In this document: positions 2,136-29,886 of the stretch, piece after piece
Layout of the letters: the number at the start of each line of letters is the position of its first letter
Position numbering within the stretch: position 1 is the first letter of the stretch
NCBI RefSeq assembly: GCF_013032855.1
Contig: NZ_WQDA01000004.1
Coordinates: forward strand, 310,001 to 374,000
DNA: 64,000 bases
Source: Ruegeria arenilitoris
GTDB taxonomy: Bacteria > Pseudomonadota > Alphaproteobacteria > Rhodobacterales > Rhodobacteraceae
Direction: 5' to 3'
Position numbers and translations under genes: made by a program
The notes under the pieces: generated by a model
What the model saw: only the letters and a program-made list of their open reading frames with translations
Told to the model about the DNA's origin: nothing
The model's database searches: none

Positions 2136-2162
2136 TCAAAATGGAAGCTAAGGGAGGAAACC

Positions 2163-3422: not shown

Positions 3423-3429
3423 TCGGGTT

Positions 3430-3491: not shown

Positions 3492-3513
3492 CCATTCCAA
3501 ACCGGGATTGACC

Positions 3514-4437: not shown

Positions 4438-4438
4438 G

Positions 4439-5287
4439 ATGTTTCCCAAACCGATCGAAAAACAACCCCGCGCGGCGCAGATTTCCTATCAGGCAATGCT
4501 GCCGGTCGCCCTTCTGCTGTGGCTCGGCCCTCTGCTGGCGGTGGCCCTGTTTTCCATCAAGCCCGAGGCGGATTTCACCAACGCCAACTACTGGGGCCTG
4601 CCCTCCAGCTTTGAAGGCGCCAGGAACTATGGCCAGGTCTTCTTCAACTCGGACATGCCGCGCTATCTGCTGAACTCGTTCCTGATCACGGTTCCCACGG
4701 TGATCGGCGCGGTGGCGCTCAGCTGCATGACCGGGTTCGCGCTGGGGATTTACAAGTTCAAGTCGAACCTGTGGATTTTCTTCATGTTCGTGGCCGGCAA
4801 CTTCGTACCCTTCCAGATCCTGATGGTGCCGGTGCGCGACCTGACGCTGGACTTGGGGCTCTACAATACGAAAACCGGGCTGGTACTGTTCCACATTGCG
4901 TTCCAGACGGGGTTCTGCACCCTGTTCATGCGCAACTTCATCCGCGCCCTGCCCTTTGAGTTGATCGAGGCCGCCCGGGTCGAGGGCATCAGCGAATGGC
5001 GCATCTTCTGGTACGTGGTCCTGCCGCTGATGAAACCCGCAATCGCCGCGCTCAGCGTTCTGATCTTCACCTTCATCTGGAATGACTATTTCTGGGCCGT
5101 CGTGCTGACCCAGGGGGCCGAGAGCCAACCCGTCACCGCCGGCATCACCAGCTTCAACGCGCAGTTCCGCGCAGCGTATCACTTGATGAGTGCCGGCTCG
5201 ATCGTCGCGGCCCTGCCGCCGGTGGCCATGTTCTTTCTGATGCAGAAACACTTCATCGCGGGTCTGACCCTCGGTGCCGTAAAATAA
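4439..5287 (+). CDS. ABC transporter permease (MalG/UgpE type)
   Basis: Second permease of the importer, 282 aa. It has the CUT1 MalG-like layout: an N-terminal membrane segment, a periplasmic loop, a central membrane bundle and the EAA loop (EAARVEGISEW...LPLMKP) about two thirds along. It ends in a short LGAVK-type tail. It begins one base after the stop of the first permease, so translation is coupled. The GH4 gene follows after 22 bases. Confidence 0.9.
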   Translation: MFPKPIEKQPRAAQISYQAMLPVALLLWLGPLLAVALFSIKPEADFTNANYWGLPSSFEGARNYGQVFFNSDMPRYLLNSFLITVPTVIGAVALSCMTGFALGIYKFKSNLWIFFMFVAGNFVPFQILMVPVRDLTLDLGLYNTKTGLVLFHIAFQTGFCTLFMRNFIRALPFELIEAARVEGISEWRIFWYVVLPLMKPAIAALSVLIFTFIWNDYFWAVVLTQGAESQPVTAGITSFNAQFRAAYHLMSAGSIVAALPPVAMFFLMQKHFIAGLTLGAVK

Positions 5288-13494: not shown

Positions 13495-14751
13495 CTACTC
13501 GTCGGTCTTCAGACTGTTTGGATCGAAGACGTTGCCGAACCCACTGTTGCCCGAAGGCTGATTGTCAGGCTCGGCTGAGCTTTCGTCGTCCTGACCACCC
13601 AATGTGTTCGGAGCGAACACATTGCCAAAACCGCTGTTGTTCGACGGTTTGGGCGTGGATTGCTGCGCGTCGCCTTGCTCGGCTTCGCGCTGCTTGCGCT
13701 GCTCCTCGCGTTGCTTGCGCAATTCCTGAATGCGCTGTTCGGCTTCCAGACGCTTTTCTTCCTTGACGTCCGCGATGCACTGGGCCGGGTTGTAGGCCAT
13801 GGCCGTCCCGACGACAGTGATCGTTGCCACGGCAAACATGACCAGCAGCACGGCCGCCATGTTCCCCGAGAAAAAGCTGGGCAACTTGATCTTGCCCGCC
13901 AGCTCCTCGACCGTGGCTTCCTTGCGCGCGGCAGCGACCAGTTCCTGACGCTTCAACTTGGCTTCGTTCAACAGGGCGAAGAACACGGTCAGCGCCACGA
14001 TGATAAAGGCCAGCGCCGAAATCGCAGGTGTAATGCCGTAGCGCACCTTCTGAGCCAGTTCGATTGTCAGTGTCGGGTATTCGCCGAACGTGAAGGTGGT
14101 GGTGTTGTAGTTCTCGAACGAGGCAAGAAACGCAAGCACCGCCGCCGAAGCAATCGCCGGGCGCATGAACGGGAGCAGGATCTTGCGAAACGCCTGTGCA
14201 TGCGTTGCGCCAAGGTCCAGTGCCGCCTCGGTCAGCGCCAGGTCATATCGCTGCAGCCGGGCCACCAGAACCAACATGCAATAGCTGGCGATGAAGGTGG
14301 ATTGGCCAATCACGGTCAGGAAAATACCGTTCGACAAAAAGCTGTCGGCGCCCAGCCCCAGCATCCGGTTGATCCGGTCCCAGAAGACCAGCGTCGAGAT
14401 ACCCAGAACAACGCCCGGGATCAGGATCGGAGCGATGATGATCGTATAGTAGGTGGCGCGCAGCTTGGGCCAGATCTGGGTCAACATCAGCGCTCCGGCC
14501 AAGCCCATCGCCACCGACAGAACCACGGTTCCCGCGCCGATGATCAACGAGTTCTTGATGCCGTTCAGGATGCGTTGGTCCTGAAACAACTCGCCAAACC
14601 ACTGGAAGGTCAGGCATTCCCACGGGCTCATGCGCGGGAAACCGGACGAGTTGAAGGCGGTGATCGACATGATCACCAGGGGACCCAGCAGGTAGGCGAA
14701 GAAGATCGCCAGATAGACCCAGATGCTGATACGGAGGAAGGACATGTTCAT
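13495..14751 (-). CDS. ABC transporter permease (PotC type) with an unusual C-terminal tail
   Basis: 418-aa permease of the spermidine/putrescine family. Residues 1-265 are a normal PotC-like bundle with the EAA loop at about 175-198 (EAALDLGATHAQ). Beyond this lies a tail of about 150 residues: a basic segment, an extra hydrophobic helix (about 298-319), a highly charged Glu/Lys/Arg/Gln helix (about 326-360) and a Pro/Asn/Ser-rich end with two copies of NSGFGNVFxPNxL (372-384 and 402-414). PotC proteins usually end near 265-280 residues. The tail may bind a partner or regulate transport. It overlaps the upstream permease by 4 nt. Confidence 0.88.
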   Translation of the reverse strand: MNMSFLRISIWVYLAIFFAYLLGPLVIMSITAFNSSGFPRMSPWECLTFQWFGELFQDQRILNGIKNSLIIGAGTVVLSVAMGLAGALMLTQIWPKLRATYYTIIIAPILIPGVVLGISTLVFWDRINRMLGLGADSFLSNGIFLTVIGQSTFIASYCMLVLVARLQRYDLALTEAALDLGATHAQAFRKILLPFMRPAIASAAVLAFLASFENYNTTTFTFGEYPTLTIELAQKVRYGITPAISALAFIIVALTVFFALLNEAKLKRQELVAAARKEATVEELAGKIKLPSFFSGNMAAVLLVMFAVATITVVGTAMAYNPAQCIADVKEEKRLEAEQRIQELRKQREEQRKQREAEQGDAQQSTPKPSNNSGFGNVFAPNTLGGQDDESSAEPDNQPSGNSGFGNVFDPNSLKTDE

Positions 14752-15668
14752 TTCCCGATATCCCCCATGTTCACCTTGAACAGGCGCATCATTGCCAGCA
14801 CGAACAGGATACAGGTGACCAGCAGAACGATGGCGTAGGCTGCGCCTTGTGGCCAGTCGTTGTTGTCATTGAACTGCTGATAGATCAGTTGCGTGAACCA
14901 CAGACTGGACGGCCCACCCAGGATTTGAGGTGCGGCCAGCGCACCGGCCGACAGCATGAACACCATCGTACAGCCAGAACTGATGCCAGGCTTGGCATAG
15001 GGAATGACCACCCTCCAGTGGATCCGCCACCACGGAGCGCCCAAGTCGCGCGCCGCTTCGATCTGGTTTCCATCCAGGCTTTCGATGACGTTGTACATCG
15101 GGAAGATCATCAGCAGGATGTACGCGTAGCCGAGGCCCGCATAGAGCGCGATGTCGTTGCGGATGAAATCAAACGGCGTGTCCCAGATCCCCAATCCGAC
15201 GAACAGCGTGTTCAAAACACCCGTCTCTCCGAAGATGATACGCAGCGCAAAGGCGCGCAGGATCTCGTTGATCCAATAGGGGATGATCAGCATGATCGCG
15301 AAGATACGGATGTGATTGCCCTTGGACTGACCCAGGTAATAGGCAATCGGATAGCAAATGATCAGGTTGAAGATCGTCACGCAGACCGCAGCGATCAACG
15401 TCCGGAAGAACACGCGCAGATCAACGGCGTTGTAGGACTGGCTACCGCCTTCCGGCCCGTAGATCAGGTATTTGTAGTTCTCTAGAGTGTACACGTCCTT
15501 GGGGCCGCCGATTTCCGGGGGCGGCAGGTTGGGACGGAAGGAAAAGTCCAGCATCGACAGCTGCGGCAGGATGATCAGGCCGATCGTCCAGAACAGGACA
15601 AGCCCCAGAATCGCGAGCCCCATGCCGAAACCGTTGCGGTTGAAGAAGTCCCTGAGGAAGCCAGGCAT
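14748..15668 (-). CDS. ABC transporter permease (PotB type)
   Basis: 306-aa inner-membrane permease of the spermidine/putrescine family. There are six hydrophobic segments and an EAA loop near residues 205-228 (EAARDLGAPWWR...IPYAKP). It lies between the ATPase gene (12-nt gap) and the PotC-type permease (4-nt overlap) and forms the importer with them. The substrate could be a polyamine or another cationic or betaine-like compound. Confidence 0.9.
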   Translation of the reverse strand: MPGFLRDFFNRNGFGMGLAILGLVLFWTIGLIILPQLSMLDFSFRPNLPPPEIGGPKDVYTLENYKYLIYGPEGGSQSYNAVDLRVFFRTLIAAVCVTIFNLIICYPIAYYLGQSKGNHIRIFAIMLIIPYWINEILRAFALRIIFGETGVLNTLFVGLGIWDTPFDFIRNDIALYAGLGYAYILLMIFPMYNVIESLDGNQIEAARDLGAPWWRIHWRVVIPYAKPGISSGCTMVFMLSAGALAAPQILGGPSSLWFTQLIYQQFNDNNDWPQGAAYAIVLLVTCILFVLAMMRLFKVNMGDIGK

Positions 15669-15680
15669 CGTCGGGCCTCC

Positions 15681-16793
15681 TTATTCCGCAGCCAGCTCAC
15701 CCGCCGGAACGACGACCGCGTTGCGGGTTTCGTATTCCAACGTGATGTTCTGCCCGGTGTGATCTTTGAACGACTGCCCGTGGTTCGGGATCGAGACCTT
15801 AATCTCCTTGCCGCCCTCTCCTTCGGTGAAGATGTTGAAGACGTTGCCTTCGAATTCCTCGTGGGTCACCCGTGCCGTGACGAAATGATCGCCGCTCGTC
15901 CCCTCGGGTGCAATCGAGAACGCCTCGGGTCGGATGAACATCATGGCGTCGTCACCTTCGGCCAACTTGCCCTGATTGGCGGTCGATATCCGCGCCACCA
16001 GATCGCCGGACCGGTTGGTCGAGATCAGGGCCTCTTCGCCCATCACTCTTTTGACCTTGCCGCGGAAGACGTTGTTTTCGCCCACGAACGAGGCGGCAAA
16101 AGCGGTTGTCGGGTCGTTGTAGATGGTCTTGCCATCGGCGATCTGGTCAATCACGCCAGCACGCATCACGGCGATGTTGTCAGACATGGTCAGGGCCTCG
16201 CCCTGGTCATGGGTGATGTAGATGAATGTGATGCCCACACGCTTTTGGATTTCGCGCAGCTCGGTGCGCATGTGCTGGCGCAGCTTGAGATCCAGCGCCG
16301 ACAGCGGTTCGTCCAGCAGCAGCACGTCTGGCTCGGCGCATAGAGCGCGCGCGATGGCCACTCGTTGGCGCTGACCGCCCGACAACTCGCTGGGCAGCTT
16401 GTCGCCCTGATCCGGCAGGGCGATCATGTCCAGCAGCTCGTCCGCGCGTTTGCGCCGTTCGGCGGCGCTGGCCCCTTTGATCTCCATCGAAAAAGTTATG
16501 TTCTCCCACACCTTCATGAGCGGAAACAGCGCGAGGTTCTGAAAGATCAGAGCAGTAGGACGCTTGTTCGGCCCGATGCCCTTCATGTTCTTGCCGCCGA
16601 TCAGGACATTGCCTTCGCTGGGCTCGAGGAACCCCGAGACCGCTCGAAGGATCGTGGTCTTGCCGCAGCCCGAAGGCCCAAGGAACGAAAAGAAATCGCC
16701 CCCGTTGATGTTCACGTTCGCATCTCGCACAGCGACAAAATCGCCGAAGCGGATCCACAGGTTTTCCAGATCAACTCCGATCCCTGCACTCAT
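15681..16793 (-). CDS. ABC transporter ATP-binding protein (PotA type)
   Basis: 370-aa ATPase. Walker A GPSGCGKTT is at residues 39-47, followed by the LSGGQRQRVAIARAL signature and the LLLDEPLSALD Walker B. The C-terminal TOBE domain ends the protein. The ATG at 16793 has a GGAGAT site 8 nt before it; the longer frame to 16835 lacks one. It is the second gene of the operon, and a stem-loop lies between it and the binding-protein gene. Confidence 0.9.
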   Translation of the reverse strand: MSAGIGVDLENLWIRFGDFVAVRDANVNINGGDFFSFLGPSGCGKTTILRAVSGFLEPSEGNVLIGGKNMKGIGPNKRPTALIFQNLALFPLMKVWENITFSMEIKGASAAERRKRADELLDMIALPDQGDKLPSELSGGQRQRVAIARALCAEPDVLLLDEPLSALDLKLRQHMRTELREIQKRVGITFIYITHDQGEALTMSDNIAVMRAGVIDQIADGKTIYNDPTTAFAASFVGENNVFRGKVKRVMGEEALISTNRSGDLVARISTANQGKLAEGDDAMMFIRPEAFSIAPEGTSGDHFVTARVTHEEFEGNVFNIFTEGEGGKEIKVSIPNHGQSFKDHTGQNITLEYETRNAVVVPAGELAAE

Positions 16794-16863
16794 TTTTGGT
16801 ATCTCCCTGTGATGCAGCCTCAGGCCGCACCGCATCGTTGTCCGTCACGCGGGGCAAACGCGT

Positions 16864-16885
16864 GCGGGGTCCAAAGGCCCCCCGC
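16864..16885 (-). other. Stem-loop between binding-protein and ATPase genes
   Basis: Arms GCGGGG (16864-16869) and CCCCGC (16880-16885) enclose a loop that can itself pair TCC with GG. It lies in the 124-nt gap after the binding-protein gene (minus strand). No U-run follows, so an mRNA-stability or attenuation role is more likely than full termination. Confidence 0.45.
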
Positions 16886-16917
16886 GCGACAACGCGAGGG
16901 GCGCGATCTCAAGGCGA

Positions 16918-18042
16918 TCAGGCGCTCTTGAACTTGTTGACGAACTCGGTCCGGGTCTCGGCATACCACGGTGCTTCGGCAGGCCACGGGTTCAGGTTGG
17001 CCAGCGAGTCGCCCGGATAGGCCTCGGCAAAGTTCTTCTTGTAGGTGTCGCCCGAATACTGGTCGGCACCCAGAACCGGCGAGTTGTAGCCGTGGCTGTC
17101 GATTGCGACACCGGCCGGCTTGGCCTGATAGGCGAAGTCAATGAAGGCGTAGACCTGGTCGATATTGGTTGCGCCGGTCGGCATCGAAATACCGTCGACC
17201 CAAGCCATCGCACCCTCGACCGGAGCCTGGTAGTGCACCGGTTCGCCAGCGGATTTCAGTGCCAGCGGCGGACCATCCCAAGTCTGTCCGACGACAACCC
17301 CTTCGTTCAGCAGGCCGTTCTTCTGGGTGTCGGCATCGTTCCAGATCAGTTTGATCCGGTCCTTGCGGGCGATGCACCAGTCGGTGATCTGACCCCAGAC
17401 CTTGCGCATGGTGTCTTCGTCGCCATATGCGGCCCAGACCGAGCCGGGCTCCATCTCGCCGATGCGCTCCATGTACAGACCCGCGCCCAACATCATCGAA
17501 TGCGCGCGACCCATGGTCTTGCCGGCGTTTTCTTCCGACCAGACGTCACCATAGGACGGAGCGTCGCCCTCGGGCAGCCACAGGTCGGTGCGATAGGCAA
17601 TGCCTTCGGTACCCCAGATATGCGGCAGCCAATGCGCGCCGCTGTCACCAAAGTTCCAGGCATCGGTGCCGATCTTGGCCATCGCCGGGTTGACCTTGTC
17701 GATCGGGACCCTGTTCATGTCGAACGGCTGCAGAAGCTCCAGCGGCTCCCACTGCAGCGAGCGGTTGTTGGTCGGCGAAACGATATCAAAGCCCTGGCCC
17801 TTGGTGGCCTTCATCTTGTTGATGATCTCTTCGTTCGAGCCAATTCCGGTGTAGTTCACCTTGATCCCGGTCAGGGTTTCGAACTCTTCGATGAAGCTGG
17901 GCGGCAGGTAATCCGACCACATCAGGATGTTGACTTCGCCCGAAGATGCAAGGGCGCTTTTGCTGTACAGAGGTGCCGCCAGCGCAGCTGCGCCGGCCCC
18001 TTTCAACACCGTACGACGGCTGAAGTTTGACGATTTGGTCAT
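16918..18042 (-). CDS. Spermidine/putrescine-type ABC binding protein with Tat signal
   Basis: 374-aa PotD-like periplasmic protein. The N terminus has a twin-arginine signal (SRRTVLKG at residues 8-15) followed by an Ala-rich core, so it is probably exported folded. The mature part starts with the VNILMWSDYLPPSFIEEF segment typical of PotD/PotF. The start has GGGAGAA 7 nt upstream. It is the first gene of the four-gene importer. The ligand is probably a polyamine or similar cation but is not fixed by sequence. Confidence 0.88.
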   Translation of the reverse strand: MTKSSNFSRRTVLKGAGAAALAAPLYSKSALASSGEVNILMWSDYLPPSFIEEFETLTGIKVNYTGIGSNEEIINKMKATKGQGFDIVSPTNNRSLQWEPLELLQPFDMNRVPIDKVNPAMAKIGTDAWNFGDSGAHWLPHIWGTEGIAYRTDLWLPEGDAPSYGDVWSEENAGKTMGRAHSMMLGAGLYMERIGEMEPGSVWAAYGDEDTMRKVWGQITDWCIARKDRIKLIWNDADTQKNGLLNEGVVVGQTWDGPPLALKSAGEPVHYQAPVEGAMAWVDGISMPTGATNIDQVYAFIDFAYQAKPAGVAIDSHGYNSPVLGADQYSGDTYKKNFAEAYPGDSLANLNPWPAEAPWYAETRTEFVNKFKSA

Positions 18043-18393
18043 TCGTGTTTCTCCCGTGTTTGGACTGAGTTTTGTTTTTTATCCGTGCGTCACGTTAGAG
18101 TTTTGCGGTCGCCCCGTCAGTCCAAAAAGTGACAGTTTGCGAAATTCTTAGGTCCAGTTCCCTCGGAAGCCCAAGCCCGGAGCCTGCCCAAACAGCACGC
18201 GACTCTGCGGGAATTCGCGCAAGGATCATATATCAAAAGGGCCGACGATACCTAACGGCGCATCGGAACTGGCCTCATGTCGCGAAGGGAGATCACGCGA
18301 ATTTTTTACGCAGCCGCCTAATCGATGCGCACCATTTCAGCCGCAAAAATCAATTTGCGACGAATTCAGACCAGAATCACGACGCGGTCGGAG
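18043..18393. other. Intergenic region between the polyamine-type and alpha-glucoside loci
   Basis: No gene is supported in these 351 bases. The right part follows the aglK stop and holds only a weak inverted repeat, CGCAAA (18342-18347) and TTTGCG (18354-18359), which could mark the end of the agl transcript. The left part must hold the promoter of the binding-protein gene starting at 18042. I see no convincing -35/-10 pair or strong operator. Confidence 0.5.
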
Positions 18394-19476
18394 CTATTTG
18401 CGCATTGACCGGCCGTCATGAAACAGGTGGATCTTCTCCGGCGCGGCAGTCACCGAAACCGTCTGACCACGCAAGCCACGATGGATGCCCGGCAGTTTGC
18501 CGATCACCGACTCAGCGCCGGGGGCTTTCGCGAAATAGAGCAGCGTTACCTCGCCCAACGCTTCGGTAAAGTCCACGGTCCCGGTCACGATGGGGTCACC
18601 GTCGGCGACCACCAGATCCTCGGGCCGCACACCCACATTGACCTTCTTGCCGGCGTCGGCGTCCCGGGTCGGAATGGCCGAAACTGCCGTGCCGCCACAG
18701 TCCAGCGCAACGGTCGTGGTGGCACCGGTGCCGGTGATCGTGCCCGGCAGCAGGTTCATGGCGGGCGAGCCGATGAACTGGGCCACGAATTCATTGTCGG
18801 GCGTCTCGTACAGTTCCAGCGGCGTGCCGACCTGCGCGATGCCCTTGTTGGCCAGAACCACGATCCGGCTGGCCAGGGTCATTGCCTCGACCTGATCGTG
18901 GGTGACATAGATCATCGTGCTGTCGGGCATCGCCTCTTTCAGGCGCGCGATCTCGATCCGCGTGGCCACCCGCAGCGCGGCATCCAGGTTCGACAGCGGC
19001 TCGTCGAACAGATAGACCTTGGGGTCGCGCACGATGGCCCGGCCGATGGCCACCCGCTGACGCTGACCGCCCGACAGAGCCTTGGGCAGCCGGTCCAGAA
19101 ACGGTTCCAGCTGCAGGATCTGCGCCGCGCGGTTCACCGACGCGTCGATCTGATCGGCAGGCATCTTGGCGATCTTCAGGGCAAAGGCCATGTTCTCGCG
19201 CACGGTCATATGCGGATACAGCGCATAGCTTTGGAACACCATGGCGATGCCCCGCTGTGCCGGGGGCACATCGTTCATCACCTGCCCCTCGATCTCCAGC
19301 GTTCCGCCCGAAATACGTTCCAGCCCCGCGATCATCCGAAGCAGGGTGGACTTGCCGCAGCCCGAGGGGCCGACGAACACGATCAACTCGCCGCGCTCGA
19401 TCTCGAGGTTGATGTCCTTCAGGACATCAACATTGCCATAGGTCTTGGCGACATCGGTCAACTTGAGCTCGGACAT
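18394..19476 (-). CDS. aglK: Alpha-glucoside ABC transporter ATP-binding protein AglK
   Basis: 360-aa ATPase of the CUT1 family. Walker A GPSGCGKST is at residues 36-44, and LSGGQRQRVAIGRAIV and VYLFDEPLSNLD are both present. A C-terminal TOBE domain follows. It is the last gene of aglEFGAK, 3 nt after aglA. It powers uptake of alpha-glucosides such as sucrose, maltose or trehalose, as known for the Sinorhizobium agl system. Confidence 0.9.
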   Translation of the reverse strand: MSELKLTDVAKTYGNVDVLKDINLEIERGELIVFVGPSGCGKSTLLRMIAGLERISGGTLEIEGQVMNDVPPAQRGIAMVFQSYALYPHMTVRENMAFALKIAKMPADQIDASVNRAAQILQLEPFLDRLPKALSGGQRQRVAIGRAIVRDPKVYLFDEPLSNLDAALRVATRIEIARLKEAMPDSTMIYVTHDQVEAMTLASRIVVLANKGIAQVGTPLELYETPDNEFVAQFIGSPAMNLLPGTITGTGATTTVALDCGGTAVSAIPTRDADAGKKVNVGVRPEDLVVADGDPIVTGTVDFTEALGEVTLLYFAKAPGAESVIGKLPGIHRGLRGQTVSVTAAPEKIHLFHDGRSMRK

Positions 19477-19479
19477 GGG

Positions 19480-21135
19480 TTACCCTTTCTCTCGGACCAT
19501 CAGGCAAAATTGCGACGGCGCCAGCGTGGCGCGGCCCTGCGCCTCGACTGCGCCCAGATCCTGACCGATGCAGCGCCAGTTGCCTTCGGGCAGGTCGATT
19601 TCCGCGGTGCCATCGCCTAGGTTGAAGGCACAGAACACCTGTTGGGTGTCATCCTCGCGCAGGAAGCTGAGGATCGGGCCGGTTTCGCGCATGTCGGACT
19701 GGGTGCCCGACATCAGCGCCGGATATTCATGGTGCAAAGCGATGGCACGGCGATAGTGGTTCAGAACCGACTGCGGGTCGGCGTCCATCCGGTCCACGGC
19801 GCGTTCGGCCTGCGCGGTGCTGACGGGCAGCCAGGGCGCACCGGTGGTAAAGCCCGACTGTTCGTCCTGCGCGGCCCAGACCATGGGCGTACGGCAGCCG
19901 TCGCGGCCCTTGTATTCAGGCCAGAACTCGATGCCATAGGGGTCCTGCAGGTGCTCAAAGGGCACGTCGGCCTCGGGCAGGCCCAGCTCTTCGCCCTGAT
20001 ACAGGCAGGCCGAGCCGCGCAGGCACATCATCAGAACCGCGTGCTGCCGGATGCCTGCGTCGTCCAGATCCCAGCGCGAGGCGTGGCGCTGCACGTCGTG
20101 GTTGGAGAACGCCCAGCACGGCCAGGCGTCGCCGGCCTTGGACAAAAGCTGGTCGAACACATGCTTGGTGTATTCTGCCGTCAGGCGGCGTTTTTCTAGA
20201 AATTCAAAGGCATAGCACATGTGCATGCGCTTGTCGCCACGGGTGTATTCGCCCATGATCTCGAGCCCGCGCTGTGCGTCGCCCACCTCGCCCAGACAGG
20301 CGCGACCGTCATATTGATCGGTCAGGGCGCGCAGCCGTTCCAGGAAGGCGATGTTTTCCGGCTGGCTCTTGGAATACAGGTGGTCCTGATGGTTGTAGGG
20401 GTTGACCATCGGCGCGATCGTGGCGTTGCGCTGATCCAGCGGCAGCGCCGGGTTGTCGCGCAGTTGCGCGTCGTGGAAGTAGAAGTTGATTGTGTCCAGC
20501 CGGAACCCGTCAACGCCCATGTCCAGCCAGAACCGCGCCACGTCCAGCAGCGCGTCCTGCACGTCGGGGTTGTGGAAATTCAGGTCCGGCTGCGAGGTCA
20601 GGAAGTTGTGCAGGTAGTACTGCTGCCGGCGCGTATCCCACTGCCAGGCCGAGCCGCCGAAGATCGACAGCCAGTTGTTGGGCGGGGTCCCGTCGGGCTT
20701 GGGGTCGGCCCAGACATACCAGTCGGCCTTGGGGTTTTCGCGGTTTCTGCGGCTTTCGACGAACCACGGATGCTGGTCCGAAGTATGCGACAGCACAAGG
20801 TCGATCATCACCCGCAGACCCAGACCATGGGCGCGGTCCAGCAACGTCTGGAAATCCTCCATCGTGCCGAACATCGGATCGATGGCGCGATAGTCGCTGA
20901 CATCGTACCCGAAATCCTTCATCGGCGACTTGAAGAAGGGCGAGATCCAGATCGCATCGACCCCCAGACCGGCGATGTAATCCAGCCGCTGGGTAATGCC
21001 TCGCAGGTCTCCGATGCCGTCGCCGTTGCTGTCCTGAAAGCTGCGCGGGTAGATCTGATAGATCACACCGCCGCGCCACCAGTCGGACGCCGTCTTGGTT
21101 GAGTGCTTGAGGTCCACGTTGTTCTGCACGTTCAT
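19480..21135 (-). CDS. aglA: Alpha-glucosidase AglA (GH13)
   Basis: 551-aa cytoplasmic GH13 enzyme that hydrolyses imported alpha-glucosides. Conserved regions are DLVLSHTS (112-119), nucleophile Asp214 in GFRLD, acid/base Glu283 in LGEVGD and Asp347 in FSNHD. The length and the QIYPRSFQDSNGDGIGDL start match oligo-1,6-glucosidase/alpha-glucosidase subfamilies. The ATG at 21135 has AAGGG upstream; an in-frame GTG one codon earlier is also possible. It lies between aglG and aglK as in other agl operons. Confidence 0.92.
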   Translation of the reverse strand: MNVQNNVDLKHSTKTASDWWRGGVIYQIYPRSFQDSNGDGIGDLRGITQRLDYIAGLGVDAIWISPFFKSPMKDFGYDVSDYRAIDPMFGTMEDFQTLLDRAHGLGLRVMIDLVLSHTSDQHPWFVESRRNRENPKADWYVWADPKPDGTPPNNWLSIFGGSAWQWDTRRQQYYLHNFLTSQPDLNFHNPDVQDALLDVARFWLDMGVDGFRLDTINFYFHDAQLRDNPALPLDQRNATIAPMVNPYNHQDHLYSKSQPENIAFLERLRALTDQYDGRACLGEVGDAQRGLEIMGEYTRGDKRMHMCYAFEFLEKRRLTAEYTKHVFDQLLSKAGDAWPCWAFSNHDVQRHASRWDLDDAGIRQHAVLMMCLRGSACLYQGEELGLPEADVPFEHLQDPYGIEFWPEYKGRDGCRTPMVWAAQDEQSGFTTGAPWLPVSTAQAERAVDRMDADPQSVLNHYRRAIALHHEYPALMSGTQSDMRETGPILSFLREDDTQQVFCAFNLGDGTAEIDLPEGNWRCIGQDLGAVEAQGRATLAPSQFCLMVREKG

Positions 21136-21144
21136 CACACGCCC

Positions 21145-22293
21145 TTATTTGACTGAACCGGCCAGCAATCCGCGGACCAGGTATTTCTGCATTGCAAAGA
21201 AGACGACCAGCGGCACCGCGATCGACACGAACGCGGCCGTGGCCAGGATTTCCCAATTGCCGCCCCGCGTGCCCAGAAGCTCGACGATACTGTTGGTCAT
21301 CACGGTGGTTTCGCCGGACGCGTCGATCAGGAACACCTTGGCCACCAGCAGGTCGTTCCATGTCCACAGGAACTGGAAGATGGCGAACGAGGCCAGCGCC
21401 GGAAAGCTCAGCGGCAGGATCAGCTTGGTGAAGATTTGAAACTCGGTGGCGCCATCGACCCGCGCATTCTCGATCAGGTCGCGGGGCAGCCCGGCCATGT
21501 AGTTGCGCAGAAGATAGATCGCCAGCGGCATGCCAAAGCCGGTATGGGCCAGCCAGACGCCCAGATACCCTTTGCCGATGCCGATGTTCAGGTGGAATTT
21601 CAGCAGCGGGATCAGCGCCAACTGCAAGGGAACCACCAGCAGACCGACCACCGCGGCGATCAACAGCGCACGGCCCGGGAAATCCATCCAGGCCAGCGCA
21701 TAGGCCGCGAAAGCCGCCACCAGGATCGGAATGATCGTGGCCGGAATCGTGACTGTCAACGTGTTGAAGAACGCCTTGGCCATGCTGTCAGTGCTGTCCT
21801 CGGCCAGCAGGACCTTGTGGTAGTTGTCCAGCGTGAACTCGGGCGGCAACTCGGCGGTCACGAAGACGCGCGACCCACGGCTGCCGGTGAATTCCTCGGT
21901 GTTCTCCATCCGGTAGTCGCCATTGGCCTGAACGGTGATCGCACCGCCCTTGCGCAGTTCGGCGGTCTGGCCCGGCTCAAACGCATCGATCTCGCGCGAG
22001 CTGATGCCCCATTTCGAGATGCGCGCCTTGGTTCCGGCGTCGAACAGGTTGCCCTCGATCACATACAGGCCGTTTTTCTGCATCTGGGTGTCGGGCGCGG
22101 CGCTGCGCAGCGTCAGGTTCTGCTCGGACGGGAAAATCGCCCGCCACCAGCCGCTGGTCGCGATCTGGTCCGCCGTGCGAAACGACGAGATGAACAGGCC
22201 CAGCGTGGGCACCACCCACAGCACCACCAGAAACAGAACCGAGGCATGTACGGCCCATCTGAGCGCCGGGCGGGTTCCTGCGATCTCACTCAT
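21145..22293 (-). CDS. aglG: Alpha-glucoside ABC transporter permease AglG
   Basis: 382-aa permease. Between its first and second membrane segments lies a soluble insert of roughly 120 residues (about 40-160) that would project into the periplasm; such an insert is characteristic of AglG. The EAA loop (ENARVDGATEF...LPLSFP) is near residues 280-305. The ATG at 22293 follows the aglF stop by 10 nt. The longer frame upstream overlaps aglF and is not needed. Confidence 0.9.
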   Translation of the reverse strand: MSEIAGTRPALRWAVHASVLFLVVLWVVPTLGLFISSFRTADQIATSGWWRAIFPSEQNLTLRSAAPDTQMQKNGLYVIEGNLFDAGTKARISKWGISSREIDAFEPGQTAELRKGGAITVQANGDYRMENTEEFTGSRGSRVFVTAELPPEFTLDNYHKVLLAEDSTDSMAKAFFNTLTVTIPATIIPILVAAFAAYALAWMDFPGRALLIAAVVGLLVVPLQLALIPLLKFHLNIGIGKGYLGVWLAHTGFGMPLAIYLLRNYMAGLPRDLIENARVDGATEFQIFTKLILPLSFPALASFAIFQFLWTWNDLLVAKVFLIDASGETTVMTNSIVELLGTRGGNWEILATAAFVSIAVPLVVFFAMQKYLVRGLLAGSVK

Positions 22294-22303
22294 GACGCAC
22301 CCC

Positions 22304-23311
22304 CTATTCCATTTCCTTGCGCGCGTTGCGCACGTTCCAGACAAGGATCGGCGTCACCAGCAGCATGATGACCATGGCCGAGGCCGAACCCACGCCCCAG
22401 TCATTGGCGCGGAACAGCTTGTCGAACATGTAGTTGGCCAACACCTGTGTCTCCCACTGGCCGTTGGTCATGGCGAAAACGATGTCGAACACCTTCAGCA
22501 CGACGATGGTGATCGTGGTCCACACCACCAGAATCGTCGTCTTGATCTGCGGCACCTTGATCTTGAAGAAGATCTGGAACGGGCTGGCGCCATCCAGAAT
22601 GGCGGCCTCGACCGTTTCTTCGGGAATGCCGCGCAGGGCCGCCGACAGGATCACCATGGCAAAGCCCGTCTGAATCCAGACCAGCACGATCATCAGGAAG
22701 AAATTGTTCCAGAACGGGATCGTCAGCCAGGTCTGCGGGTCGGTTCCGCCAAAGAAGATGTACAGGGCATTCAGCATGCCGATCTGGTCCTGCTCGACCG
22801 GACGGGTGTCATAGACAAGCTTCCAGATCACCGATGCGCCCACGAACGAGATCGCCATCGGCATGAAGATCAGAGATTTGGCGACATTGCCCCATCGGAT
22901 GCGGTCGGTCAGCTGGGCGACCAACAGGCCAAATGCTGTCGACAGCGCCGGGACCACGATCAGCCACAGCATGTTGTTACGCATCGCTTCCCAGAATTTG
23001 GGCTCTCCCATCATCTGGGAGTAGTTGTCCAGACCCACCCACTCGTATCCGCCGCCAGGCACCCGGTCGGTCAGGGACAGGCGCAGCGTTTCCACCACAG
23101 GATAGGCCAGGTACAGCCCCAGCGCGACCAGAGCGGGCAAAAGAAACAACCATGGCCGGACCATGTTTGCCCGATTGATGTTGCGTCCGGCGTTCGGGCC
23201 GCGCGGCGGGAACAGAATCTTGTCCAGAAACTGGTTGGACAAGTAGAAGTAACCAACACAGCCGGATACGCCGATGGCGATCGTCAGCAGACCTTGCAAT
23301 GCGGGATGCAT
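22304..23311 (-). CDS. aglF: Alpha-glucoside ABC transporter permease AglF
   Basis: 335-aa permease. An extra N-terminal hydrophobic segment precedes the standard six-helix bundle, as in other AglF proteins. The EAA loop (EAAILDGASPFQ...VPQIKT) is near residues 235-258. It lies downstream of aglE, from which it is separated by a 63-nt gap with a stem-loop. Confidence 0.9.
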   Translation of the reverse strand: MHPALQGLLTIAIGVSGCVGYFYLSNQFLDKILFPPRGPNAGRNINRANMVRPWLFLLPALVALGLYLAYPVVETLRLSLTDRVPGGGYEWVGLDNYSQMMGEPKFWEAMRNNMLWLIVVPALSTAFGLLVAQLTDRIRWGNVAKSLIFMPMAISFVGASVIWKLVYDTRPVEQDQIGMLNALYIFFGGTDPQTWLTIPFWNNFFLMIVLVWIQTGFAMVILSAALRGIPEETVEAAILDGASPFQIFFKIKVPQIKTTILVVWTTITIVVLKVFDIVFAMTNGQWETQVLANYMFDKLFRANDWGVGSASAMVIMLLVTPILVWNVRNARKEME

Positions 23312-23374: not shown

Positions 23375-24643
23375 TTATTGGATCGCGTCCCAAGACGCCT
23401 GGATCTCGTCCGCCACGTCTTGCGCGGGTTTGCCACCGGCATAGTCGACCATGCCCGTCCAGAACGTGCCTGCGCCAACCGCGCCCGGCATCAGGTCAGA
23501 CCCGTCAAAACGGAAGGTGGTCGCACCCAGAAGAATGTCGTTCATCTTCTTCAGGGTCGGATCCGAGAAGGCCGAGGTATCGACACCCTTGTGCGGCGTC
23601 AAAAAGCCGCTGAGCGCCATCCAGGTCTCATGCGCCTCGGGGGTCTGCAGATAGGCGATCAGGTCATGCGCTGCGGGGCTGTCATTGGTGATCGCCCACA
23701 GGGTGCCAGCGCCCAGTACCGGGCTGCCCAGATCCTTGCTTTCATAAGCCGGGAAGTAGAAGAAATCGGCATCTTCACCCACGACCGTGCCTTCGGGGAA
23801 GAAGGCCGGGATGAACGAGGCCTGACGGTGCATGTAGCACTGCGGCGGCGAGCTGAACATGCCTTTGGGGCTGTCGCGGAAATCCGTGGTTGCAACCGCA
23901 CCGGCCCCACCGGCGACGTAGTCGTCATTGCGGGCGAATGCGCCGAATTCCTCGATCGCGGCCACGACCTTGGGATCGTTGAACTTCAGCTCGTTGGCAA
24001 CCCACGCGTCATAATCCTCGGGGGATTGGGTGCGCAGCATCATATCCTCGACCCAGTCGGTCGCAGGCCAGCCGGTTGCGCCACCCGACCCCAGACCGAT
24101 GCACCAGGGCGTGCCGCCATCGGCGACGATCTGGTCGGTCAGGGCCTTGAGCTCTTCCATCGTGGTTGGAACTTCATATCCCGCGTCCTCAAAGTTCTCG
24201 GGCACGTACCAGACCAGCGATTTCACATCGACCTTGTAGAAGAAGCCGTACAGGTGGTCCTGACCGTCCGGGCCGGCATAGGTGCCCAGATCAACCCAAG
24301 ACTGGCCCGCGGCATAGTTGTCCCGGATCCAGTCGGCGGTCCCGTCAGCAAGCGGTGTCAGAAACCCGGCCTTGGCCATATCGGCTGCAAGACCCGGCTG
24401 GGGGAACACGGCGATGTTCGGGGCCGACCCGGCCTCGGCGTCGATGCGGATCTGCTGCTCGAAGCTGTCCGACCCGACATAGGCATATTCATGACCGGTG
24501 GCCGCGGCAAAGCCGTCCAGCACCTTTTCGACATTCTCCTGGTCCGGGCCAAGCCACGGGCCGAACACGGTGACCTTTTCGGCCTGGGCCGCGCCCGCCA
24601 TCAGGGCAAACGTGGCCGCACCTGCCAAAAGCGAGTGTTTCAT
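23375..24643 (-). CDS. aglE: Alpha-glucoside ABC transporter binding protein AglE
   Basis: 422-aa periplasmic binding protein with a Sec signal peptide (cleavage near AQA-E, residue 21). The mature protein has the family 1 fold and the paired Cys positions typical of AglE. The ATG at 24643 has GGGAGG upstream; the frame extends five more codons without support. It is the first gene of aglEFGAK, driven by the promoter and operator at 24686-24737. Confidence 0.9.
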   Translation of the reverse strand: MKHSLLAGAATFALMAGAAQAEKVTVFGPWLGPDQENVEKVLDGFAAATGHEYAYVGSDSFEQQIRIDAEAGSAPNIAVFPQPGLAADMAKAGFLTPLADGTADWIRDNYAAGQSWVDLGTYAGPDGQDHLYGFFYKVDVKSLVWYVPENFEDAGYEVPTTMEELKALTDQIVADGGTPWCIGLGSGGATGWPATDWVEDMMLRTQSPEDYDAWVANELKFNDPKVVAAIEEFGAFARNDDYVAGGAGAVATTDFRDSPKGMFSSPPQCYMHRQASFIPAFFPEGTVVGEDADFFYFPAYESKDLGSPVLGAGTLWAITNDSPAAHDLIAYLQTPEAHETWMALSGFLTPHKGVDTSAFSDPTLKKMNDILLGATTFRFDGSDLMPGAVGAGTFWTGMVDYAGGKPAQDVADEIQASWDAIQ

Positions 24644-24685
24644 TGATTTTCCTCCCAACTGTATCCGCGCGTGTGAGACTCAGTT

Positions 24686-24874: not shown

Positions 24875-25906
24875 ATGAACCTCAAACAGCTCTCTCAGAT
24901 CCTGGGTCTGTCACAGACAACGGTCAGCCGCGCGCTGAACGGTTACCCAGAGGTGAACGAAGAGACTCGCATGCGGGTTCAGGCGGCGGCGGCCAAACAT
25001 GGCTATCGGCCGAACGCCCGCGCCAAGGGGCTGGCGACGGGTCGTTCGATGGTGATCGGCCACGTGATCCCCAGCTCGTCGCGCCACGAGATGGTGAACC
25101 CGATCTTCGGCGATTTCGTCGCCGGCGCGGTCAAGAAATATGCCGAGCACGGCTACGACATGATGTTCACCAATGCCGACGACACCTCGATCGAAGACGC
25201 CTATCGCAGCCTGTTCCAACGCGGTGCGGTCGACGGCGTGGTGCTGCAGGGCCCCAAAGTGAACGAGCCGCGGATCGAGGTTCTGACTCGGATGCAGGTG
25301 CCGTTCATCGTGCATGGCCGGTCGACCGGCGTCAGCGTGCCCTATGACTGGATCGACGTGAACAACAAAAGCTCGTTCCTGCGTGCGACCCGCTTTCTGA
25401 TCGACCTGGGCCACCGGCGGATCGCGCTGATCAACGGTCTGGAAGACATGGATTTTGCCCAAAGGCGCCGCGACGGGTATCTTGAGGCGCTGAAACAAGC
25501 CGGTCTGTCGCCCGACCCGGCCCTGATGCGCAGCGCCGAGATGACCGAAGTCTATGGCCATCACGAAACCCGCGACATGCTGCGGCTGGACGATCCGCCG
25601 ACCGCGATCCTGACCTCGTCGATGATCTCGGCGATCGGGGTGCGGCGCGCGCTGGACGAGGCCGGGCTGAAAATGGGCCGCGACGTGTCGGTGATCGCAC
25701 ATGACGACGACCTGTCCTATCTGAAGAACGGGCAGGACGTTCCGATCTTTACCGCCACCCGGTCTTCGGTGCGCCACGCCGGCGAACTGGCCGCCGAGAT
25801 GCTGATCGAGCGCATCCGCGCGCCCCACGACCCGGCCAAGACTAGATTGCTCGAGGCCGAACTGGTAGTCGGCGGCTCGACTGGTCCCGCCCCCAACAGG
25901 TTCTGA
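24875..25906 (+). CDS. aglR: LacI-family regulator of alpha-glucoside use, AglR
   Basis: 343-aa repressor. The LacI helix-turn-helix is at residues 1-30 (SQILGLSQTTVSRALNG), followed by the hinge helix and a periplasmic-binding-protein-like effector domain. It diverges from aglE, and its likely operator is the palindrome at 24686-24701. No clear Shine-Dalgarno sequence precedes the ATG. A half-matching AAAGCCTTTT motif at 24856-24865 could be a second operator for autoregulation. The next gene starts 2 nt after its stop. Confidence 0.88.
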   Translation: MNLKQLSQILGLSQTTVSRALNGYPEVNEETRMRVQAAAAKHGYRPNARAKGLATGRSMVIGHVIPSSSRHEMVNPIFGDFVAGAVKKYAEHGYDMMFTNADDTSIEDAYRSLFQRGAVDGVVLQGPKVNEPRIEVLTRMQVPFIVHGRSTGVSVPYDWIDVNNKSSFLRATRFLIDLGHRRIALINGLEDMDFAQRRRDGYLEALKQAGLSPDPALMRSAEMTEVYGHHETRDMLRLDDPPTAILTSSMISAIGVRRALDEAGLKMGRDVSVIAHDDDLSYLKNGQDVPIFTATRSSVRHAGELAAEMLIERIRAPHDPAKTRLLEAELVVGGSTGPAPNRF

Positions 25907-25908: not shown

Positions 25909-28236
25909 ATGAAGTACACCCGCGCTGATTTCCCCAAAGACTTTCTCTTTGGTGTCGCAACCTCTGCCTATCAGATCGAAGGCCACGCACAGGGCGGCGC
26001 CGGCCCGACCCATTGGGACAGTTTCGCAGCCACGCCCGGCAACGTGGTGCGCGCCGAAAACGGCGATCTCGCCTGCGACCACCTGCACCGGTACGAACAG
26101 GATTTCGACCTGATCCGCGAGGCCGGGTTCGACTGCTATCGTTTTTCCACCAGCTGGGCGCGCGTGCTGCCCGAAGGGCGCGGGCCGGTGAATCAGGCCG
26201 GGCTGGACTATTATGACCGGTTGGCCGACGCCCTGCTGGAACGCGGCATCCGCCCCTGCGCCACCCTGTATCATTGGGAACTGCCCTCGCCGCTGGTTGA
26301 TCTGGGCGGTTGGCGCAACCGTGACATCGCCCACTGGTTCGCCGATTTCACCGAGATCATCATGGGCCGCATCGGCGACCGCATGTACAGCGTCGCCCCG
26401 ATAAACGAGCCCTGGTGCGTCAGCTGGCTGAGCCATTTCGAAGGCCACCATGCCCCCGGCCTGCGCGACATCCGCGCCACGGCCCGCGCCATGCATCACG
26501 TCCTTCTGGCCCACGGCCGCGCGATTCAGGCGATGCGGGGCCTTGGCATGTCGAACCTGGGCGCGGTGTTCAACCTTGAATGGGCCGAACCTGCCGATGA
26601 CACCCCCGAGGCCCGCGAAGCCGCCGATCTGTACGACGGCATCTACAACCGGTTCTTCCTGGGCGGCGTTTTCAACAAGGCCTACCCCGAGAATGTCCTG
26701 CAGGGGCTGCAGGCCCACCTGCCCGACGGGTGGCAGGATGATTTCGACACGATCGGCACGCCGGTCGACTGGTGCGGGCTGAACTACTATACCCGCAAGC
26801 TGATCGCGCCCGCCGACACGCCCTGGCCCAGCCTCCAAGAGATCCCCGGCCCCCTGCCCAAGACGCAGATGGGCTGGGAGATCGAGCCAAGCGCGCTGAC
26901 TCGGTTCCTGACCCGTACGGCCCGGGACTACACGGGCGATCTGCCGATCTATGTCACCGAAAACGGCATGGCCAGCCCCGAGCGGCAGCAGGATGACGAC
27001 CGCATCGACTATCTGAATCAGCATCTGGCCGCGGTGCAGGACGCGCTGGATCAGGGCGTCCCGGTCACGGGCTATTTCATCTGGTCGCTGCTGGACAATT
27101 ACGAATGGGCGCTGGGATACGAGAAGCGGTTCGGCCTGGTCGATGTCGATTTCGACACGCTGGAACGGCGCCCCAAGGCCTCGTTCCGGGCGATGCAGGC
27201 CGCTTTGGCCCAGGGCGATCCGGTCTCGGTGCCGATGGCGCAGCCCAAGGGCGCGATGCACGACCACTGGAACCTGGTGGCCGATATCGGCGGCACCAAC
27301 ACGCGGCTGGGGGTCGTCACCAATGGCACGCTCACCGATCTGCGCAAATCGCCCACCGGCACGCTGCCCGAGTTTCTGGCCGCCCTGCACGACCTGTACG
27401 CCGAGATAGGAACCCCGCCGCGCGCCGTGGTCGCCGCGGGCGCGGGCCCGGTGCGCAATGGCACGATCCGTCTGACCAATGCCAATCTGGACCTGTCCGA
27501 GGCTGACATCGCCTCGGCCACCGGCGCGGACCACACCTTTGTCATCAACGACTTCACCGCCGCCGCCTGGTCGGTGGCCGAGATCACCGGCGACGACGTG
27601 CAGGCCCTGCAGGGCGACCCGACCCCGCCCAAGGGCACCCGACTGGTGGTCGGCCCCGGCACCGGGCTGGGCGTCGGCGCGCTTTTGTATTCCGAAGGCC
27701 ACTATCACACCGTCTCGGGCGAGGGCGGCCATGTCGGTCTGTCGCCCCGTACCCGCGACGAGGTGGACGTGTTCGAAGCCGCCCGCCGGATCGCGCCCGA
27801 GTGTTTCTTCGGCGACAGCCTGACGCTCGAGGCCGAGATGTTCCTCAGCGGCACGGGCCTGCCGATCCTGTATCGTGCCGTGGGCATGGCCGCAGGCCAG
27901 CCCGAAACGCCCGTCCTGCCCGCCAAGGACATCCTGCAGGCCGCGCGCGACGGGTCCGATCCGCTCGCCATACGCGCCGCGCAGATCTTCACCACCCATC
28001 TGGGCGCCGTGATGGGCGACATGGCCGTCACCGTGATGCCCACAGGCGGCGTCTTCTTGGTGGGCGGCGTGGCCGAGAAGAACCGCTGGCTGTTCGGCGA
28101 CGACTTCCTGGCGGCCTTCAACGCCGGAGGCCGGTTCGACGCGCTGCGGCAGGGCTTTGGCGTTTATGTGTCGGAACAGGCCGAATTTGGCATTGTTGGC
28201 GCTAACAACTTCTGCAAAAATGCGCTCGCGCGGTAA
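25909..28236 (+). CDS. Fusion protein: GH1 beta-glucosidase joined to glucokinase
   Basis: A single 775-aa frame with two complete enzymes. Residues 1 to about 432 are a GH1 beta-glucosidase, with acid/base Glu167 in INEPW and nucleophile Glu351 in VTENG. After a linker of about 20 residues, residues about 453-775 are an E. coli-type glucokinase, with phosphate-binding DIGGTNTR (459-466), catalytic Asp548 in INDFTA, GPGTGLGVG (582-590) and GEGGHVGLSP (604-613). The second part begins where a free glucokinase would start: Met450 (ATG at 27256) has AAGGG four bases before it, so a separate kinase could also be made. Hydrolysis and phosphorylation of glucose would be coupled. A lost stop codon or a sequencing error is the main alternative. 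Confidence 0.9.
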   Translation: MKYTRADFPKDFLFGVATSAYQIEGHAQGGAGPTHWDSFAATPGNVVRAENGDLACDHLHRYEQDFDLIREAGFDCYRFSTSWARVLPEGRGPVNQAGLDYYDRLADALLERGIRPCATLYHWELPSPLVDLGGWRNRDIAHWFADFTEIIMGRIGDRMYSVAPINEPWCVSWLSHFEGHHAPGLRDIRATARAMHHVLLAHGRAIQAMRGLGMSNLGAVFNLEWAEPADDTPEAREAADLYDGIYNRFFLGGVFNKAYPENVLQGLQAHLPDGWQDDFDTIGTPVDWCGLNYYTRKLIAPADTPWPSLQEIPGPLPKTQMGWEIEPSALTRFLTRTARDYTGDLPIYVTENGMASPERQQDDDRIDYLNQHLAAVQDALDQGVPVTGYFIWSLLDNYEWALGYEKRFGLVDVDFDTLERRPKASFRAMQAALAQGDPVSVPMAQPKGAMHDHWNLVADIGGTNTRLGVVTNGTLTDLRKSPTGTLPEFLAALHDLYAEIGTPPRAVVAAGAGPVRNGTIRLTNANLDLSEADIASATGADHTFVINDFTAAAWSVAEITGDDVQALQGDPTPPKGTRLVVGPGTGLGVGALLYSEGHYHTVSGEGGHVGLSPRTRDEVDVFEAARRIAPECFFGDSLTLEAEMFLSGTGLPILYRAVGMAAGQPETPVLPAKDILQAARDGSDPLAIRAAQIFTTHLGAVMGDMAVTVMPTGGVFLVGGVAEKNRWLFGDDFLAAFNAGGRFDALRQGFGVYVSEQAEFGIVGANNFCKNALAR

Positions 28237-28275: not shown

Positions 28276-29202
28276 ATGATCCTGTGCTGTGGCGAGGCCC
28301 TGATCGACATGATCGCGGAACCGACGGTTTCGGGCGCGCAAGGTTTTGTGCCGCATTCGGGTGGCGCGGTGTTCAACACCGCCATCGCCCTGGGCCGGCT
28401 GGGTGCGCCTGCCGGAATGCTGACCGGGTTGTCGCGCGACATGTTCGGCCAGCAACTGGCGCAGGCCCTGAAAGACAGTCATGTGGATGGCTCGCAGGTT
28501 GTTCTTTCGGACCGTCCGACCACGTTGGCCTTCGTACAACTGCAGGACGGGCACGCCACCTATTCCTTCGTCGATGAAAACTCGGCCGGGCGGATGCTGC
28601 GCCCCGAGGACATGCCGGACCAGCTGACCGCGACCTCGGCGCTGTATTTCGGCGGCATCAGCCTGGCCTGCGAGCCCTGCGCCGATGCCTATGCCGCCCT
28701 GCTGGACCGTCACGGGGCCGAGCGCGCGGTGATGATCGACCCCAACATCCGCCCCGGCTTCATCCAGGACCAGACCCGCTATCGCACCCGGCTGAACCGG
28801 ATGATCGCGCAGGCCGACATCGTCAAAGTCTCGGACGAAGATCTGGACTGGATCGTCCCCGGCCCCGAAACGCTGGAGGAAAAGGTGCCGCTGCTGCTGC
28901 AGGCCGGTCCCGCCGTGGTGATCGTCACGCGCGGCAGCCAGGGCGCGACCGGGTATCTGGCCGATGGCCGCACGGTTTCAGTGCCGGTCACGCCGGTTCA
29001 GGTGGTCGATACGGTGGGCGCGGGCGACACGTTCAACGCCGGAGTGCTGGCGCAACTGCACCGCGCCGGGCTGCTGACCAAACAGGCGCTCCGCGCGATC
29101 TCGCCCGACGACCTGCGCGCCGCGCTGGAACTGGGCGGCAAGGTCGCCGCCGTCACCGTATCCCGCGCCGGGGCCAACCCGCCCTGGGCGCACGAGCTGT
29201 AA
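28276..29202 (+). CDS. PfkB-family sugar kinase (probable fructokinase)
   Basis: 308-aa ribokinase-fold kinase. The N-terminal GEALIDMI start and GGAVFN motif (29-34) bind the sugar. The signature DTVGAGDTFNAG is at 245-256, with catalytic base Asp251. In a sucrose or alpha-glucoside operon, a fructokinase would consume the fructose released from sucrose or made by the isomerase encoded next. Other ketose or deoxyketose substrates are possible. Confidence 0.85.
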   Translation: MILCCGEALIDMIAEPTVSGAQGFVPHSGGAVFNTAIALGRLGAPAGMLTGLSRDMFGQQLAQALKDSHVDGSQVVLSDRPTTLAFVQLQDGHATYSFVDENSAGRMLRPEDMPDQLTATSALYFGGISLACEPCADAYAALLDRHGAERAVMIDPNIRPGFIQDQTRYRTRLNRMIAQADIVKVSDEDLDWIVPGPETLEEKVPLLLQAGPAVVIVTRGSQGATGYLADGRTVSVPVTPVQVVDTVGAGDTFNAGVLAQLHRAGLLTKQALRAISPDDLRAALELGGKVAAVTVSRAGANPPWAHEL

Positions 29203-29220: not shown

Positions 29221-29886
29221 ATGAAACGATCCGAGATCAACCGCATCAAGGCCGAGGCGCAAGCCTTCATCAATTCGTTCGGCTTTGCCCTGCCGCCCTT
29301 TGCCGACTGGACGCCCGAGCAGATGCGCAGCCCGCAGGCCGCCGGCATCCGCGCCCGTGGCCTTGGCTGGGACATCACCGATTACGGCCAGGGCAGGTTC
29401 GACGAACTGGGCCTGTTCCTGTTCACCCTGCGCAATGGCGACGAAAAGGACCTGAGCGCAGGGCGGGGCATGCTCTATGCCGAGAAGTTGTTGATTTCGC
29501 GTGACAAACAGCTGTCGCCGATGCATCGCCACATCGTCAAGGCCGAAGACATCATCAACCGCGGCGGCGGCGATCTGGTGATGGAGATCTACGCCTCGGC
29601 CCCCGATGGCAGCATCGACCGCGACACCCCCGTCACCGTGCCCAGCGACGCCTGCCCGGTGACCATCCAGCCCGGCGAGCATCTGCGCCTGAAACCGGGC
29701 GAAAGCGTCACGCTCATGCCCGGCATCTGGCACGCCTTCTGGGCGGAAAAGGGCGATTGTCTGATCGGCGAGGTCTCGACCGTCAATGACGACCGCACCG
29801 ACAACGTGTTCGAACAGCCGATCCCGCGCTTTGCCACGATCGAGGAAGACACCGCGCCCGAATTCCTGCTGGTCGCCGATTACTGA
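29221..29886 (+). CDS. D-lyxose/D-mannose ketol-isomerase (cupin)
   Basis: 221-aa protein of the D-lyxose ketol-isomerase family, which converts D-lyxose to xylulose and D-mannose to fructose. The metal ligands are visible: His102 and His104 in MHRH, Glu109, and His171 in GIWH. Beside a fructokinase, the mannose-to-fructose reaction is the more likely role. Its 3' end overlaps the convergent cation-efflux gene by 7 nt. Confidence 0.85.
   Translation: MKRSEINRIKAEAQAFINSFGFALPPFADWTPEQMRSPQAAGIRARGLGWDITDYGQGRFDELGLFLFTLRNGDEKDLSAGRGMLYAEKLLISRDKQLSPMHRHIVKAEDIINRGGGDLVMEIYASAPDGSIDRDTPVTVPSDACPVTIQPGEHLRLKPGESVTLMPGIWHAFWAEKGDCLIGEVSTVNDDRTDNVFEQPIPRFATIEEDTAPEFLLVADY

Follow-up and report, generated by a model that had tools for sequence, protein, structure and literature searches.

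Can a bacterial beta-glucosidase and the kinase that acts on its product be encoded as one protein, or does such a reading frame merely reflect a misread base between two adjacent genes? The question is raised by a locus of Ruegeria arenilitoris (assembly GCF_013032855.1), located in a stretch of 64,000 nucleotides of contig NZ_WQDA01000004.1 that we call the window. A first-pass annotation of this DNA had described one uninterrupted frame of 775 residues, holding a complete family 1 glycoside hydrolase (GH1) followed by a complete glucokinase, and the description was borne out (Table 1). The fused gene is the single match in its own genome, where it is unbroken. Comparison of the sequences indicates that it is a real two-enzyme fusion, genus-wide in Ruegeria, and a new architecture built of known parts. 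We found no paper on a GH1-glucokinase fusion in the open-licence PMC literature, and the accessible part of PMC13313319, a paper on proteomes of Ruegeria that differ by strain, does not mention glucokinase or glucosidase.

Table 1. Features of the fused gene and its neighbours, in coordinates of the window.
Feature	Position	Strand	Remarks
Fused GH1-glucokinase gene	25909..28236	+	ATG to TAA, 775 codons plus stop, no internal stop
GH1 beta-glucosidase domain	25924..27195	+	Residues 6-429; acid/base Glu167, nucleophile Glu351; Pfam and TIGR03356
Junction	27196..27273	+	Residues 430-455; order predicted, pLDDT averaging about 88-91 in blocks of ten
Glucokinase domain	27274..28218	+	Residues 456-770; Asp548, Glu605, His608, Glu643; Pfam
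Shine-Dalgarno-like box (ACAGG) 5' of the fused gene	25896..25900	+	Inside the end of lacI
Internal ATG, codon 450	27256..27258	+	AAGG upstream; possible second glucokinase start, not conserved
LacI-type regulator	24875..25906	+	Two bases 5' of the fused gene
PfkB-family sugar kinase	28276..29202	+	Fructokinase is the top NCBIfam model, its 139 bits falling short of the cut-off of 450
D-lyxose/D-mannose isomerase family protein	29221..29886	+	
Solute-binding protein of agl-like ABC importer (aglE position)	23375..24658	-	
ABC permease (aglF position)	22304..23311	-	Marker of the agl locus in genome searches
ABC permease (aglG position)	21145..22344	-	
GH13-type alpha-glucosidase (aglA position)	19480..21138	-	Labelled alpha-glucosidase in the B32 record
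ABC ATPase (aglK position)	18397..19479	-	UgpC model 443.8 bits, cut-off 432

Two known enzyme families in one frame

The GH1 half of the window protein scores 451 bits against the Pfam family Glyco_hydro_1 (PF00232) and 542.3 bits against the NCBIfam model TIGR03356 (BGL), above its cut-off of 478.5. The N-terminal 436 residues match the whole fold of known GH1 beta-glucosidases (Thermotoga maritima, 1od0 and 6m6l), with the catalytic glutamates Glu167 and Glu351 at the places where the first-pass annotation had put them. The C-terminal half matches the Pfam family Glucokinase (PF02685) with 224.4 bits against a cut-off of 22.1. The glucokinase motifs that had been named from the letters are likewise in place: DIGGTNTR from residue 459, Asp548, and GPGTGLGVG from residue 582. 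The whole domain is shared with bacterial glucokinases such as E. coli Glk (1sz2, 1q18), including INDF, GEGGH and the glutamate of E..LSG. Unlike E. coli Glk, it makes up the C-terminal half of the fused protein and falls below the cut-offs of the NCBI glucokinase equivalog models, the best whole-protein scores being 183.5 against 333 for NF001415 and 163 against 225 for TIGR00749. The window protein has no match to the ROK family (PF00480) at 1e-3; weak matches of 33-36 bits are found in two of seven shortened homologues described below and in the unfused glucokinase L118 of genome G430. The bifunctional regulator/glucokinase (NF010701, HexR-type plus Glk) is also a glucokinase fusion, but its N-terminal partner is a regulator; this model, whose cut-off is 920, gives the window protein 136.8 bits, over the glucokinase part only.

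The AlphaFold2 model of the window protein has a mean pLDDT of 89.5 and a pTM of 0.82, with an ordered junction. In this predicted structure, residues 2-438 align with the GH1 structure 6m6l_B with a Z of 51.9 and an rmsd of 1.6 over 433 residues. Inspection of the window protein by eye shows no evident signal peptide.

Distribution in Ruegeria and beyond

We identified a full one-frame fusion in 31 of 54 Ruegeria genomes and a reduced one-frame fusion in 19. In one genome (G430) no GH1 precedes the glucokinase, and a stand-alone GH1 is also present; another (G437) has a fragment only, at a contig edge; two (G418, G421) have no match to the fusion at 1e-30. Glu167 and Glu351 are present in all 31 full-length fusions. 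All 50 fused genes, full and reduced, exhibit D548, E605, H608 and E643, aligned with E. coli-type Glk and presumably serving as sugar-site and catalytic residues. The sequences from Ruegeria intermedia and Silicibacter (Ruegeria) lacuscaerulensis are 97-98% identical to the window protein, and a plasmid of Ruegeria sp. B32, in a record marked complete sequence, carries a 98.7% identical fusion with no stop. The median pairwise dN/dS (Nei-Gojobori) of the full fusions is 0.046 for the GH1 half and 0.069 for the glucokinase (392 and 324 pairs), for pairs with computable dS, many of whose dS values are near saturation.

In related genera of Rhodobacteraceae bgl and glk are separate genes and often adjacent, as had been supposed in the first-pass annotation, with the same gene order as the fusion and in many cases sharing one frame that a single stop interrupts. 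A single misread base at such a pair could mimic a fusion. We give a sequencing or assembly artefact practically no credence, and regard it as refuted by the same unbroken frame in 31 of the 54 genomes and on the B32 plasmid, both halves also being under selection. The vicinity of 27200, where a stop or a frameshift had been thought conceivable, exhibits neither, and the frame runs through the interval 27190-27260 in each of the 50 fused genes. Unlike the fusion, the pairs of Rhodobacteraceae are two genes, with a glucokinase 28-46% identical.

A sample of 394 genomes of the family (about one per genus) yielded a match in 251; among the matches listed, an unbroken full-length fusion is found only in two genomes of Ruegeria. 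Searches with the glucokinase alone gave matches in 242 of the 394 family genomes and 281 of 390 order genomes, and those with the whole protein in 65 of 327 class genomes and 128 of 349 phylum genomes. Among the matches listed for these overlapping sets, with few candidates scored per genome, there is no second GH1-glucokinase fusion. Long-frame candidates in many genomes (G154, G363, G207, G142, G358, G331, G292, G193, G799, G736, G983, G726, G716, G994, G837, G1246, G1266, G1256) were rejected, GH1 and glucokinase not being in one frame; reading of the DNA identified their long frames as chance extensions. For G799 and G736, open frames of 813 and 1066 by the search measure 336 and 322 by direct reading of the DNA. 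The G1256 locus (L246) belongs to another class of the phylum; there bgl and glk lie side by side in one frame, separated by stops.

A sugar locus and the proposed reaction

The window locus is one for the uptake and catabolism of sugar. The lacI gene, the fused gene, the PfkB-family kinase and the isomerase form one run, and the agl-like cluster, for which we assume the agl and aglEFGAK names used in Sinorhizobium, is divergent from it. A second ABC cluster of four proteins lies beyond aglK, at 14002-18078. The agl neighbourhood of the full fusions was viewed directly in five loci plus the B32 plasmid. In NCBIfam the GH13-type protein of the agl-like cluster scores best with a model named for the beta-galactosidase BglA (861 bits; the cut-off is 900), and that name is at odds with the Pfam family of the protein.

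A coupled hydrolase-kinase, as first proposed, is the best reading of the window protein: most likely it would turn imported glucosides into glucose-6-phosphate, with both presumed activities and a putative channelling between them. In the mechanism that we favour, and hold with considerable confidence, a single cytoplasmic chain would carry the beta-glucosidase and the glucokinase joined by the short ordered junction. Sugars imported by the neighbouring agl-like ABC importer would be cut by the GH1 half, and the glucokinase half would convert the released glucose to glucose-6-phosphate by phosphorylation. Phosphorylation would draw off the product of GH1 at a fixed 1:1 enzyme ratio, a coupling that we infer, as we do the substrate. 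The fusion itself is a stable feature of the genus. Once its linkage to agl was broken, or agl itself disappeared, the GH1 half would be without work and would decay. This decay would be limited to changes that keep the frame, since the glucokinase would be reached only by translating the long chain to its end.

Reduced fusions with a dead GH1 half

The 19 reduced fusions, here called relics, are 611-707 codons long, each in one frame with an intact glucokinase and with 68-164 residues missing from the GH1 half. Glu167 is kept in one of them and Glu351 in four, both together in none. Judging from these residues, the GH1 half is catalytically dead in all 19 relics. The glucokinase family PF02685 was matched in each of seven relics scanned. 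Their glucokinase is 72-80% identical to that of the window (70-98% in the full fusions), and their GH1 part 32-52% identical over BLAST segments. Compared with the full genes, the relics exhibit 60 distinct deletion intervals, with all frames still open. As far as the alignment determines such counts, relics keep 288-384 of the 452 positions up to the glucokinase, and the 31 full genes have a single shared one-residue gap.

From intact GH1s (13 stand-alone sequences of the genus, 37 of the outgroup and 31 fused ones) we defined 156 conserved positions, 91 of which are lost in most relics. Among the lost ones are Gln22, Trp123, Asn166, Glu167, Tyr294, Glu351, Trp392, Glu399 and Trp400, to which we ascribe active-site roles in GH1. 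The median dN/dS (Nei-Gojobori, pairs with computable dS, many dS values near saturation) of the GH1 part is 0.20 and 0.24 in relic groups A and B, against 0.06 and 0.07 for the glucokinase (39, 19, 45 and 29 pairs). The closest relic pair, L105/L107, exhibits 0.59 for GH1 versus 0.03 for the glucokinase. Purifying selection on the relic GH1 appears relaxed and not absent, because its dN/dS of 0.20 and 0.24 compares with 0.046 in the full fusions.

Relics and separation from the agl locus

Gene order indicates that relics go with separation from the agl uptake locus. Twelve of the 19 relic genomes have an intact stand-alone GH1 behind lacI at an agl locus that lacks a glucokinase, and carry the relic elsewhere. 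In the other seven no stand-alone GH1 (at 1e-3) and no match to the AglF permease (at 1e-60) was found. At two relic loci out of 20 examined, L104 (genome G402) and L108 (genome G420), the second ABC cluster of the window lies directly beside the relic gene, at about 800-4900, its four proteins being 89-97% identical to those of the window. Because this cluster directly abuts the relic gene, aglKAGFE and lacI are absent there from their original place. The overall pattern suggests that the GH1 is kept together with agl uptake, and the glucokinase for its own sake. In two public plasmids (L232, L236) the relic gene is directly downstream of a gene labelled beta-galactosidase, so that the glucokinase would again stand beside a sugar-releasing enzyme. 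The cluster of L232 and L236 also contains a gene of the SMP-30/gluconolactonase family and, in L232, one for a 2-dehydro-3-deoxygalactonokinase.

One chain or two

The ACAGG box before the initial ATG is found in 30 of the 31 full fusions and 17 of the 19 relics, and CAGG in all 19 relics. Within the 20 codons before DIGGTN, some ATG occurs in 18 of the 31 full genes (window gene included) and in eight of the 19 relics. Six relics have only GTG or TTG there, several of these inside the first strand, and in five ATG, GTG and TTG are all absent. Recognisable Shine-Dalgarno boxes before the glucokinase domain are rare. The glucokinase is probably synthesised as the rear part of the fused protein, because the start region is kept and no internal start is conserved; if it is made only in this way, presumably with no separate products, the upstream frame cannot be broken.

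The internal ATG of the window gene, with its AAGG, makes a second, shorter product possible, and the public gene tables for plasmids of Ruegeria sp. B32, THAF33 and AD91A begin a 'ROK family protein' within the intact fused frame, at codon 427-429. Both would fit the making of two proteins, the glucokinase starting inside the fused gene. We nevertheless consider this unlikely: besides the lack of a conserved internal start, relics would then be free to acquire stops and frameshifts, yet none of the 19 has any. The GH1 half has no gene entry in L231 (NZ_CP081107.1), L234 (NZ_CP045385.1) and L235 (NZ_CP031947.1). The fused protein is not shown as one gene in these three public plasmid gene tables, which omit pseudogenes and some genes. 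By their coordinates THAF33 and AD91A are our genomes G428 and G427, and they provide no extra evidence. The tables of L232 and L236 list their relics whole, as 'family 1 glycosylhydrolase'.

Leftover or working part

The relic barrels could be plain neutral leftovers, each an open leader that delivers ribosomes to the glucokinase, with the barrel idle and on its way out. Such a state would fit the relic GH1 evolving several times faster than its own glucokinase and shrinking step by step. The relic is moreover not indispensable, because G430 has a glucokinase without it. This explanation is a serious one, although we stop short of calling it probable. It does not readily account for the dN/dS below 1 in the relic pairs listed (dS being near saturation in many), nor for the 69 GH1 positions kept in at least 80% of relics, nor for the 41 so kept among the 156 conserved positions.

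The predicted structure of the shortest relic (L114, 611 residues; AlphaFold2 mean pLDDT 90.5, pTM 0.74) also bears on this point. Residues 1-278 align with the GH1 structure 6rk2_B (Z 28.4, rmsd 2.1 over 277 residues), and residues 289-611 with E. coli glucokinase 1sz2_A (Z 36.4, rmsd 2.1 over 313). All eight strands of the barrel are present in the predicted secondary structure, and the loops between them are gone. The relic is thus predicted to fold as an eight-strand barrel, in a model whose alignment included intact GH1s, favouring such an outcome; folding in the cell is what we would expect by extension. It is conceivable, and we advance it tentatively, that the dead barrel is a selected working part, a pseudo-glycosidase stabilising, dimerising or regulating the glucokinase, which was slimmed to a loop-free barrel after the loss of activity, probably in more than one lineage. 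The kept residues were also considered as an interface with the glucokinase specific to the fusion, with little to show for it: Arg115 is the single one of the 69 that outgroup GH1s seldom have (3%), and it is also present in 54% of the stand-alone GH1s of the genus.

Fusions of consecutive enzymes are common; here the need for one half would have vanished many times and the other half persists. Unlike known GH1 enzymes, the window GH1 is joined to a kinase, and in 19 relatives it is dead and shortened. Klotho proteins are GH1 barrels without catalysis that serve as binding scaffolds; they are animal receptors and have no kinase. With the relics, bacteria would offer an example of a GH1 pseudoenzyme. 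Full fusions and ever slimmer relics, together with the intact stand-alone copy that 12 species also have, can show which parts of a TIM barrel serve folding and which serve catalysis, and test whether fused partners become mutually dependent.

Evolutionary history

At 26 of 28 loci from outside the genus (L003-L030), picked by a score favouring such pairs, glk is in the same frame as bgl. These loci do not establish an origin of the fusion by simple loss of a stop codon; the closer glucokinase relatives L030 and L152 are in another frame.

In the glucokinase tree, relic group B is a single clade (99/93) neighboured by L099; the remaining nine relics cluster with 14 full fusions (94/88, unstarred). 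The rpoB tree, which has weak support, places full and relic species interleaved, with 9 changes by parsimony. GH1 decay probably happened twice or more, a number resting mainly on the glucokinase tree. In the GH1 tree the stand-alone copies are mixed with the fused ones, except that of G430, which lies outside (98/87); a tree with all full fusions held together is not rejected (AU p 0.237), and the stand-alone copies may either descend from the fusion or be older than it. The glucokinase of G430 without a GH1 relic is located at 5875-6840 of L118, and this genome may represent either the unfused ancestor or a later complete loss of the relic.
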